A DNA stretch of 37,327 nt from a bacterium. GTDB taxonomy: Bacteria > Pseudomonadota > Alphaproteobacteria > Rickettsiales > RI-342. How positions within the stretch are numbered: the first letter of the stretch is position 1; each line of letters starts with the position of its first letter. The notes under the pieces were generated by a model. The model was not told the origin of the DNA. It did no database searches and saw only the letters and a list, made by a program, of their open reading frames with translations. Positions 19,660 through 22,083 of the stretch are shown here, piece after piece. Location of the stretch: assembly GCA_016124905.1 (NCBI GenBank), contig WGMV01000008.1, forward strand, positions 174,521 through 211,847. The letters run 5' to 3'. The position numbers and the translations under genes are program-made.

Positions 19660-20532
19660 TTAGGGATGTTTCATCATGCCGATCAGCTTTTCCATCACCT
19701 TCATTCGCGCGCTGGTTTTGCGCCACACCAGCCCGATGGTGCGGCTGGGGGCGGGGGTGGCGAAGGGAATATAGGCGATTCCCTCATCATCCTGCCTCCG
19801 CGCGATGCCGGGCATCAGGGTGATGCCCATGCCCGCCTTCACCATCTGGCGCAGCGTCTCCAGCCCCGTGGCCCGAAAATCCTGGTCTTCCCCCAGGCCG
19901 ATGGCCTGGCACACATCCAGCGCCTGGTCGCGCAGGCAATGGCCTTCGTCCAGCAGCAGCAGCTTCTCCCCGTTCAGCGCGGCCTGGGTGATTTTCTTCT
20001 GTTTGGCCAAGGGGTGCCCTTTGGGCGCCGCCAGGTAGAACGGATCGTCAAACAGCTTCTGGCTCACCAGCTGGTCGTCATACACGGGCAAGGCGAGCAG
20101 CGCTGCATCCAGCTGGCCGCGCAGCAAAAGCTCAATCAGTTGCGCGGTTTTATCCTCCACCAGCACCAGCTTCAGCTTGGGCAGCGTTTCTTTCACACCG
20201 GGCGCGATGGTAGGAAAAAGATAGGTCGAAAGCGTCGGGAACGCCCCCAGCCGGAAGGTGCCCGAAAGCGGATCATGCGCATGTTCGGCAATCTCGTGGA
20301 TATTCTCCACCTCCCTCAGCACCCGCCGCGCATGCTGGACGATCTGCTCGCCGATTTCCGTCAGCATCACGCGCCGGTTGCTGCGCTCAAACAGCTGCAC
20401 TCCAAGGAATTCCTCCATTTTCTTGATCTGGTTGCTGAGCGTCGGCTGGCTCACATGGCAAAGCTCGGCCGCCTGGCTGAAATTCTTCAAATCCGCCACC
20501 GTCACCACATATTCCATGTCACGCAGGTTCAT
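19660..20532 (-). CDS. oxyR: LysR-type peroxide sensor OxyR
   Basis: 290-residue LysR-family regulator. The N-terminal winged helix-turn-helix (about 1-60) has the usual FSQAAELCHVSQPTLSNQIKKMEEFLGVQLFER. In the effector domain, GHCLRDQALDVC places cysteines at residues 199 and 208, the same numbers as the redox-active pair of E. coli OxyR, so peroxide-driven disulfide switching is well supported. It is divergent from a microprotein-ahpC-ahpD unit, and a four-half-site OxyR-like box starts 12 bp upstream of its own ATG, implying autoregulation together with activation of the peroxidase genes. Confidence 0.95.
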   Translation of the reverse strand: MNLRDMEYVVTVADLKNFSQAAELCHVSQPTLSNQIKKMEEFLGVQLFERSNRRVMLTEIGEQIVQHARRVLREVENIHEIAEHAHDPLSGTFRLGAFPTLSTYLFPTIAPGVKETLPKLKLVLVEDKTAQLIELLLRGQLDAALLALPVYDDQLVSQKLFDDPFYLAAPKGHPLAKQKKITQAALNGEKLLLLDEGHCLRDQALDVCQAIGLGEDQDFRATGLETLRQMVKAGMGITLMPGIARRQDDEGIAYIPFATPAPSRTIGLVWRKTSARMKVMEKLIGMMKHP

Positions 20533-20543
20533 ATCGCCTCACC

Positions 20544-20580
20544 ATTCACAATATCTATCATTAACATAGAAACAATCGAT
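20544..20580. promoter_or_regulatory. Predicted OxyR tetramer binding site
   Basis: The sequence reads ATTC-N7-CTAT-N7-ATAG-N7-CGAT, four half-sites spaced exactly 11 bp start to start. The known OxyR consensus is ATAG-N7-CTAT-N7-ATAG-N7-CTAT, so 13 of 16 half-site positions match, with the two central half-sites perfect. It lies between oxyR and the microprotein gene. A TTG that could begin a -35 element for the plus-strand unit abuts its right edge at 20580, typical of OxyR-activated promoters. Confidence 0.75.
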
Positions 20581-20652
20581 TGTACATTCATATAAGCTAT
20601 GGATTAAAGTCAAATCATAGGTTCAACGGCAACAGCAAAAGGGGAGGCGATC

Positions 20653-20841
20653 ATGCGGAATCTCGATGCATACGATCTCTTCTGCATTCTCACCCTTCAG
20701 GAGCATTCCCACAAGGATGCGCATGAAGAGGCCAAAACACAAGACGAGGCGGCAGAATACGACGTTGAATGTGCCTGCCGTGCCTACCTCAAAGAGGAAG
20801 GCATCGGCGAAACGAAACAACCCAAAACCAAACGGAGCTAA
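20653..20841 (+). CDS. 62-residue microprotein upstream of ahpC
   Basis: A small gene that I do not recognise but consider real. GGAGG sits 5 nt before its ATG, the strongest Shine-Dalgarno in this region, and its stop is only 2 bp before the ahpC ATG. The ahpC Shine-Dalgarno (CGGAG) lies inside its last codons, which suggests translational coupling. The product is highly charged (Glu, Lys, Asp), with no membrane helix. It has three cysteines, at residue 11 and as a C-x-C pair at 40 and 42. Position under the predicted OxyR box implies peroxide-induced expression. A role as a redox or metal partner, or merely as a coupling leader, is speculation. Confidence 0.7.
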   Translation: MRNLDAYDLFCILTLQEHSHKDAHEEAKTQDEAAEYDVECACRAYLKEEGIGETKQPKTKRS

Positions 20842-20843
20842 TC

Positions 20844-21443
20844 ATGACCATTTCAGTTGGTGAACAATTCCCGGCCTTCAACCTCAAAGCCGTGGACGGC
20901 AAGAAATTCGACGACATCACCATCGACAACGTCTTTGTCGATGTGAACGAGAAATCCTACAAGGGCAAATGGCTGGTGGTTTTCTTCTACCCGAAGGATT
21001 TCACCTTTGTCTGTCCGACGGAAATTGCCGCCTTCGGTGATCTCAACAATGAGTTTAAAGACCGCGACACCCAGGTGCTCGCCGCCAGTACGGACAGCGA
21101 GTTCACCCATTGGGCATGGCGCAAGCACCAGCCGGAATTGCGCGACCTGCCATTCCCCATGCTGGCCGATATCAAGCGCGAGCTTTCGCAGAACCTCGGC
21201 ATTCTGGATAAGAACGAAGGCGTCGCCCAGCGCGCCACCTTCATCGTGGATCCGGATGGCATCGTACGCTTCTCCATGGTGACCGACCTCAATGTGGGCC
21301 GCAACCCCAAGGAAGTGCTCCGCGTACTCGATGCCCTGCAGACGGATGAACTCTGCCCCTGCAACTGGAGCAAAGGCGAGCAAACCATCGACTTGCACGA
21401 AGCCACCGGCGACACCCCCAAATCCGGCAAAAAAGCCGCCTAA
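20844..21443 (+). CDS. ahpC: Alkyl hydroperoxide reductase AhpC (2-Cys peroxiredoxin)
   Basis: Reduces peroxides with a reactive cysteine. The 199-residue protein starts at the ATG at 20844, where CGGAG is 6 nt upstream and the family start MTISVGEQFPAF aligns. The peroxidatic cysteine is Cys57 in FTFVCPTE. The resolving cysteine is in ELCPCNW (171, with an extra Cys at 173, giving C-x-C). No ahpF is nearby; ahpD follows at 83 bp, so reduction by an AhpD-type disulfide adaptor, as in mycobacteria, is the likely recycling path. Regulation by the divergent OxyR is expected. Confidence 0.96.
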   Translation: MTISVGEQFPAFNLKAVDGKKFDDITIDNVFVDVNEKSYKGKWLVVFFYPKDFTFVCPTEIAAFGDLNNEFKDRDTQVLAASTDSEFTHWAWRKHQPELRDLPFPMLADIKRELSQNLGILDKNEGVAQRATFIVDPDGIVRFSMVTDLNVGRNPKEVLRVLDALQTDELCPCNWSKGEQTIDLHEATGDTPKSGKKAA

Positions 21444-21464
21444 TCAATAACACAGGCTCCTGAT

Positions 21465-21507
21465 TCTCTCTCTCCCCGCTTGCAGGGAGAGGGTAGGGGT
21501 GAGGGGC
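21465..21507. repeat. Intergenic palindromic repeat in the ahpC-ahpD gap
   Basis: CTCTCCC (21470-21476) and GGGAGAG (21485-21491) form a hairpin around CGCTTGCA, followed by GGTAGGGGTGAGGGG. This is the pattern of a repeat family seen in intergenic regions of many proteobacteria. It fills half of the ahpC-ahpD spacer and could stabilise the upstream ahpC transcript or reduce read-through. The ahpD Shine-Dalgarno begins just after it. Confidence 0.6.
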
Positions 21508-21525
21508 AGCTTAGGAGAACGATCC

Positions 21526-22083
21526 ATGACCATCCAACAACTGCGCGACCAGCTCGGCGATTACGCAAAAGACATCAAACTCAACCTCGGCAAGGTGCTG
21601 GAAGAAGACGGCGCACCGGGCCTCAGCAAAAACCAGATATTCGGCATCGCGCTTGCTTCCGCCTATGCCACCAAACATCCGGCCGTCATCGCCGCGTTCG
21701 AGGCCGAAACCGCCACCATCCTGTCAGCGGAGGAAGTGAACGCCGCCCGCGCCGCCGCCACCATCATGGGCATGAACAACGTTTATTACCGCTTCGTACA
21801 TCTGGTGAGCGACAAGGAATACGGCCGCATGCCCGCCAACCTCCGCATGAACGTCATCGGCAACCCGGGCATCGAGAAAGTGAGCTTCGAGCTCATGAGC
21901 CTCGCCGTCTCCGCCATCAACGGCTGCGGCATGTGCATGGATGCGCATGTCAATGAAGTCATCAAGGGCGGCGTCAGCAAACAGGGGGTGCAATCCAGCA
22001 TTCGCATCGGCGCGGTGATTGCTGCTGTTGCACAGGCTTTGGTGATGGGCACTGGCAACGCTGCACTCTCCGCCGTTGCCTGA
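21526..22083 (+). CDS. ahpD: Alkylhydroperoxidase AhpD
   Basis: 185-residue member of the carboxymuconolactone decarboxylase fold, all-helical and trimeric in known relatives. The catalytic CxxC-x3-H is present as CGMCMDAH (Cys134, Cys137, His141), with the supporting glutamate in FELM near residue 122. Family knowledge: AhpD passes electrons from lipoylated dehydrogenase components to AhpC and has weak peroxidase activity itself. The ATG at 21526 is preferred because AGGAG is 8 nt upstream; the longer in-frame reading would run into the intergenic repeat. Likely in the same OxyR-controlled unit as ahpC. Confidence 0.95.
   Translation: MTIQQLRDQLGDYAKDIKLNLGKVLEEDGAPGLSKNQIFGIALASAYATKHPAVIAAFEAETATILSAEEVNAARAAATIMGMNNVYYRFVHLVSDKEYGRMPANLRMNVIGNPGIEKVSFELMSLAVSAINGCGMCMDAHVNEVIKGGVSKQGVQSSIRIGAVIAAVAQALVMGTGNAALSAVA

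Follow-up and report, generated by a model that had tools for sequence, protein, structure and literature searches.

A three-cysteine microprotein family encoded ahead of ahpC in predicted OxyR-controlled operons of alphaproteobacteria

The oxyR–ahpC intergenic region

The window, a stretch of 37,327 nucleotides from a 2.36-Mb genome (G000, contig C8; G-numbers denote genomes and L-numbers loci or stretches), contains oxyR on the reverse strand, followed on the forward strand by a small open reading frame, ahpC and ahpD (Table 1). The oxyR product carries an H-C-L-R-D-Q-x(4)-C stretch, which we take to be a motif of OxyR. The small frame, termed here the microgene, starts with ATG and ends with TAA at 20839-20841, and the ahpC ATG follows at 20844. 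A sequence-only reading of this DNA had described a 62-codon frame that ends 2 bp before ahpC, contains the ahpC Shine-Dalgarno sequence and encodes a C-x-C pair. The coordinates agree, CGGAG lies within the frame, and the pair is C40-A-C42. We found a third cysteine, C11, which that reading had not mentioned and which is conserved as well as C40 and C42.

The microgene had also been credited with the best ribosome-binding site of the locus. Duplex energies calculated with the presumed 16S tail bear this out, at -11.2 for the microgene compared with -6.4 for oxyR, -5.8 for ahpC and -7.3 for ahpD. Ahead of the microgene, an OxyR box had been predicted. Scanning with ATAG-N7-CTAT-N7-ATAG-N7-CTAT, which we assume to be the OxyR consensus and used for all site scans, returned a single match with ≤3 mismatches in the whole window, ending 72 nt upstream of the microgene; shuffled sequences held 0.03 such matches on average (3 of 100 had one), in keeping with the prediction. 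The block CAATCGATTGTAC, on the promoter side of the site, is common to loci with and without the microgene. Downstream, ahpD follows ahpC in most relatives examined. The ahpC–ahpD gap of the window (21461-21525) holds a G-rich dispersed repeat (CTTGCAGGGAGAGGGTAGGGGTGAGG), of which the genome has five copies at ≤3 mismatches; a reversed control gave none.

Table 1 Features of the oxyR–microgene–ahpC–ahpD locus, in positions of the window.
Feature	Position	Strand	Basis
oxyR, LysR-type regulator, divergent from microgene–ahpC–ahpD	19660..20532	-	Pfam LysR_substrate and HTH_1
OxyR-type double site, two ATAG-N7-CTAT-like units with N7 between	20544..20580	+	3 of 16 mismatches
Conserved block CAATCGATTGTAC, promoter side of the OxyR-type site	20573..20585	+	Alignment of 24 intergenic regions
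Shine-Dalgarno GGGGAGG of the microgene	20641..20647	+	Sequence; duplex energy -11.2
Microprotein gene, 62 codons, C11/C40/C42	20653..20841	+	Family alignment, leave-one-out and restricted profiles, codon analyses
Codon of conserved Cys11	20683..20685	+	C column, 14 of 15 rows
Codons of the C40-A41-C42 pair	20770..20778	+	C40 in 14 of 15 rows, C42 in 15 of 15
ahpC Shine-Dalgarno CGGAG, within the last microgene codons	20833..20837	+	Sequence; duplex energy -5.8
ahpC, 2-Cys peroxiredoxin, D-E-L-C-P-C-N-W stretch near the end	20844..21443	+	Pfam AhpC-TSA 1.6e-37; translation
ahpD, carboxymuconolactone-decarboxylase family partner of AhpC	21526..22083	+	Pfam CMD 5.5e-14

Relatives of the microprotein and their cysteines

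Searching 36 genomes (that of the window included) with the window protein alone retrieved G010 (E 3.9e-6), G008 (0.0019) and G004 (0.23); the G010 and G008 matches lie between oxyR and ahpC, and a fourth outside match was dismissed as chance. G328 was found by tblastn with the same protein (E 1.7e-5). We also read the oxyR–ahpC gaps of 30 loci from an AhpC search of 343 genomes and of 35 further stretches from the window's order. Small gap frames with a C...CxC pattern were present in 11 genomes (G000, G001, G008, G010, G028, G124, G236, G244, G328, G329 and G331), the rows beyond G000, G008, G010 and G328 having first been picked by eye for C-x-C, which favours the cysteine pattern. Two more, G456 and G552, came from searching 385 genomes of the class with profile A2, and one of 80 named AhpC loci carried the microgene (L091, Alphaproteobacteria bacterium REEB112, the same stretch as G777). 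The starts of G001, G236, G552 and G777 were set by hand at an internal ATG with a Shine-Dalgarno sequence, inside a longer open frame. We count the microgene in 15 genomes, 12 in the window's order and three in two other orders of the class. In 13 of them it comes first after an OxyR-type site, between divergent oxyR and ahpC; in G004 and G552 it stands without an adjoining ahpC. The G004 member (L004, 1501-1659) is divergent: another residue stands in for one cysteine of the pair, and the protein contains the stretch HGHH. Its gene overlaps a 100-residue open reading frame by 8 nt, a gene for a Zn_ribbon_TFIIB protein comes next, and a Bax1-I family gene lies alongside.

The strength of linkage differs among the rows. 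A profile restricted to the four rows of the single-protein search (G000, G010, G008 and G004) recovered G328 (2e-14), G552 (7e-7), G456 (9e-7) and G331 (4e-4), followed by G777 (0.015), G329 (0.041) and G244 (0.24), with the best background frame at E 2.3. At E 1-3, G001, G124, G236 and G028 were not separated from this background; an 11-row profile made outside the G001 group placed them at 0.012-0.083, where the best background frame scored 0.73. When each of the 15 rows was left out in turn, the profile of the others recovered it at E < 0.002 in 14 cases (G329 at 0.49), with the caveat that the G001-group rows support one another. By sequence comparison, eight genomes are firmly linked at E < 0.001 (that of the window, G004, G008, G010, G328, G331, G456 and G552) and G777 is fairly well linked, and for G001, G124, G236, G028, G244 and G329 membership rests mainly on the slot and the cysteine pattern. 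When a profile of the 14 other rows was run against 932 stop-to-stop frames of the window, the window protein scored E 2.4e-12 and the next frame E 2; its 44.6 bits compare with 16.8 for the best of 2000 shuffles.

In the window's order, profile A4 gave matches at E below 1e-9 in 12 of 299 genomes, each of which had contributed a row to the profile; five weak matches there were all rejected, two after inspection. The order of G552 yielded one match in 43 genomes (a row already in the profile) and a weak one besides, and that of G456 two in 33, both likewise rows of the profile. Across 398 genomes of the phylum, no others than G000 and G456 were matched, apart from a single weak hit; the class and phylum sets are samples. 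Among weak profile matches in other genomes (E 0.009-0.24), those in L005, L075, L076, L077, L172 and L174 were rejected as falling in unrelated or longer frames, and L074, L078, L079, L173, L175, L176 and L178 solely because no ahpC or oxyR match lay nearby; a further weak match, L180 (E 0.009), is a 240-residue frame. A tblastn search of 72,556 plasmids gave no relative at E 0.1. Pattern scanning of genome contigs with the single window protein confirmed no relatives, the family's rate of divergence being too high for exact seeds.

Besides the start, the three cysteines are the most conserved residues of the family. C42 is present in all 15 rows, C40 in 14 (missing in G004) and C11 in 14, G329 having its cysteine two columns earlier; their codons are divided between TGC and TGT (9/5 for C11, 7/7 for C40 and 7/8 for C42). 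Over all pairs of the eight core rows (1133 aligned codons), differences numbered 606, 551 and 800 at codon positions 1, 2 and 3; with Met and Trp excluded, different codons were used for 200 of the 340 residues in common. The window and G010 differ 16/14/28 times at the three positions. In the trio G001–G124–G236, which belongs to the weakly linked subgroup, 36 compared codons gave 7/4/15, 8/6/21 and 4/5/20, with third-position shares of 15/26, 21/35 and 20/29, a dN of 0.16 and dS of 1.42 in the first pair and saturated dS in the other two. The check that the sequence-only reading had named, a search for homologues upstream of ahpC, thus returned conserved amino acids, conserved cysteines and codon bias, and its proposal survives. 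The frame is short and overlapped by others of similar length, as a chance frame in the ahpC leader might be, but homology, the codon-difference pattern, the conserved cysteines and the start context make such an origin very improbable.

Scans of 12 of the 15 members against Pfam, NCBIfam and PHROGs gave no match near the cut-off, and a profile search of solved structures (PDB) returned chance matches only (best E 2). Within the open-licence PMC literature, we found no paper on a microprotein linked to both ahpC and OxyR or on a CxC small protein tied to peroxide and OxyR; the one paper that touches on ahpC, oxyR and an upstream small open reading frame concerns recX, and the small-protein paper closest by topic is a translatomics review. 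The best reading is that of a new C...CxC microprotein family, absent from the libraries searched, whose conserved cysteines recur in independent genomes (at E < 0.001 in eight, at 0.015 in G777 and more weakly in six).

Structure prediction points to a small, mostly helical protein. AlphaFold, given the window protein with four rows, placed helices at residues 6-17, 21-29 and 38-49 in a poor model (pLDDT 55). A single-sequence model of the 47-residue G001 protein, from the weakly linked subgroup, has helices at 6-18 and 22-33 (mean pLDDT 76, pTM 0.50; block means of 92 and 87 over residues 11-30), and Foldseek with this model gave no match at E under 1. Both models contain only helices. The G001 cysteines are at 11, 29 and 31; if its helices fold back around residue 20, Cys11 would lie opposite Cys29, a geometry that would fit a single dithiol or metal site.

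The promoter slot and the product of the microgene

Of the 13 oxyR–microgene–ahpC loci, 12 have an OxyR-type site with 1-4 mismatches; the best site of G456 has 5. Each of the 12 was matched by at most 1 of 300 shuffles, and the G456 site was equalled by 8% of shuffles. An upstream double site of the kind expected in the OxyR regulon is present, at ≤4 mismatches, in 12 of 13 loci, the window among them. The sites end 49-91 nt before the microgene ATG; in G244 the best register differs from that of the other loci. No OxyR-type site was found in the 320 nt upstream of the microgene in G004 and G552 (best 7 mismatches). For comparison we used the 29 loci of the window's order among L008-L051 with oxyR in view and the microgene absent. 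Their sites have 2-5 mismatches and lie a median of 83 nt before ahpC, at ≤110 nt in 23 of the 29. These distances indicate that the microgene occupies the first-gene slot of the ahpC transcript. Six loci exceed 110 nt: four with a DUF2061 or Dps-like gene in the gap, plus L033 and L037.

Other genes were seen in the same slot. A Dps-like ferritin-domain gene follows the OxyR-type site in L045 (1007-1492) and L046 (G242 and G243), the G242 gene having a ferritin domain by Pfam and that of G243 being near-identical. A gene for a small DUF2061 membrane protein lies in the slot of L034 (1244-1474) and of L041 and L115 (G314, G318). DUF2061 was present in 4 of 20 genomes checked, and together with the microgene only in G552, where the microgene sits 4 nt ahead of it, away from ahpC (L073). 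In L009 (G131, 835-1501), a 665-bp oxyR–ahpC gap carries an apparent gene on the oxyR strand.

The microgene is missing from most OxyR-linked AhpC loci of the window's order. An AhpC tree was built from 55 chosen loci: 13 with the microgene, 33 with oxyR but without it, and 9 in which oxyR was not found. Microgene presence required 8 changes on this tree. Shuffles that counted the last nine as without the microgene averaged 11.8 changes, and 1 of 500 was as low as 8. Support in this quick tree was often low, 22 of 52 inner branches being open. Since presence changes repeatedly and most loci are without the microgene, it is dispensable; clustered yet repeatedly gained or lost, it behaves as an accessory of the AhpC system. 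Outside the window's order, three Marinicella records (L082, L084 and L085) encode an AhpC 77-79% identical to that of the window, a similarity that suggests ahpC transfer. No oxyR was found near ahpC in these three records.

The sequence-only reading had offered two interpretations of the microgene, a new peroxide-stress microprotein or a leader that couples translation. A coupling leader would load ribosomes onto ahpC, its peptide being irrelevant. The window has features suited to this, with 2 bp from stop to start and a weak ahpC Shine-Dalgarno (-5.8) within the frame, and in 12 of the 15 members, both non-ahpC loci (G004 and G552) included, fewer than 20 nt separate the microgene from its downstream neighbour (-8 to 19 nt). 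The downstream Shine-Dalgarno lies inside the frame in the window and outside it in three loci with spacings of 34, 57 and 116 nt. Over the 13 ahpC loci, however, the distance from the microgene stop to ahpC ranges from -7 to 116 nt, and every one of these loci provides ahpC with a Shine-Dalgarno of its own (-5.4 to -9.3). Because this spacing varies, a mere coupling leader is insufficient to account for a conserved protein. Amino acids are kept while codons change, which a leader need not do, and we therefore take the protein to be the product that matters. With neither a conserved close spacing nor a peptide free to vary, and with two relatives away from ahpC, coupling is improbable as the conserved function. 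It may occur as a secondary effect in the window, whose ahpC has the weakest Shine-Dalgarno of the four genes.

A second kind of leader, in which attenuation or stalling at the cysteine codons would sense cysteine, redox state or metal and so control ahpC, is less probable still. Its appeal is a small cysteine-bearing frame immediately ahead of a stress gene, but the last conserved cysteine stands 6 to 38 codons before the stop, the N-terminal motif around C11 is conserved too, and the next gene is not always ahpC, which can be as far as 116 nt downstream. The microprotein half of the earlier interpretation has therefore fared better than the leader half: conserved sequence, third-position bias, the OxyR-type site, the Shine-Dalgarno sequence (family median -9.3, compared with -2.2 for random 17-mers) and the absence of a known family all argue for a new peroxide-stress microprotein.

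Proposed role and comparison with known systems

We lean, with moderate confidence, towards a three-cysteine microprotein family that is the first product of an OxyR-controlled ahpCD operon and would most likely contribute to peroxide defence as a thiol or metal partner. Acting at the double site, oxidised OxyR would activate the unit, with the microgene as its first gene, and the microprotein would be made together with AhpC and AhpD. Its N-terminal cysteine and C-x-C pair would most likely come together in a single dithiol or metal site, and the protein would either serve AhpC/AhpD as a small thiol partner, acting as an electron relay or protector, or bind iron or another metal during peroxide stress. 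The thiol-partner reading is slightly favoured on two grounds: apart from the start, no residues are conserved as well as the three cysteines, and in 13 of 15 genomes the microgene is followed by ahpC. More tentatively, the microprotein could be a dedicated helical-hairpin component of the AhpC–AhpD system in environmental alphaproteobacteria, its cysteine triad (a helix cysteine plus the C-x-C) exchanging electrons with AhpC, AhpD or OxyR. The described electron path of AhpC with AhpD runs through AhpD, SucB and Lpd (PMC6626918). AhpC and AhpD constitute a well-studied peroxide defence, to which a conserved extra thiol protein encoded first in the operon, if true, would add a new component.

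It is rather unlikely, in our estimation, that the microprotein is instead an iron- or other metal-binding protein that limits Fenton chemistry and takes no part in an AhpC thiol relay. This would suit the company that the slot keeps, since it holds ferritin/Dps-like genes in G242 and G243 and DUF2061 genes in G314 and G318. A DUF2061 gene also follows the microgene by 4 nt in G552, and genes of this type are listed in iron-related tables from Caulobacter (PMC3751524) and Shewanella (PMC12442407). G004, without one cysteine of the pair, has HGHH before the C-x-C site. Three cysteines are few for a stable iron site, however, and histidines are not conserved across the family. Whichever role applies, the promoter-proximal slot of oxyR–ahpC loci takes varied peroxide or iron genes (microprotein, Dps-like and DUF2061), and this variety offers a route to further members of the peroxide response.

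Among known systems, glutaredoxin 1 and the thioredoxins of the OxyR regulon are small thiol proteins induced with AhpC. They have C-x-x-C and a thioredoxin fold, whereas the microprotein has neither: a conserved C-x-x-C is absent from the family alignment, Pfam scans of 12 members gave no thioredoxin or glutaredoxin match, and both models are helical. Bfd, the bacterioferritin-associated ferredoxin, has the arrangement C-x-C ... C-x-x-C and shares with the microprotein a length of about 60 residues, a C-x-C and a stress or iron setting. The order of motifs differs, however, and the microprotein has three conserved cysteines where a Bfd-type protein would have four; Pfam at E up to 1 gave no ferredoxin family for 12 members. 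YaiA of E. coli has 63 residues, and we know of no tie between it and ahpC or the C...CxC pattern. YaiA is listed as OxyR-regulated (PMC4207228), and by description only it is like the microprotein in its OxyR link, similar length and unassigned function.

The nearest likeness within the operon is to AhpC itself. In B. thailandensis, both tail cysteines of AhpC act as resolving cysteines and AhpD reduces AhpC (PMC6626918). The window AhpC carries a C-x-C pair. The microprotein differs from AhpC in its additional N-terminal cysteine and in having neither a peroxidatic motif nor the peroxiredoxin fold. The likeness between the two, a few residues long, is a C-x-C that follows an acidic residue in two proteins encoded by the same operon.
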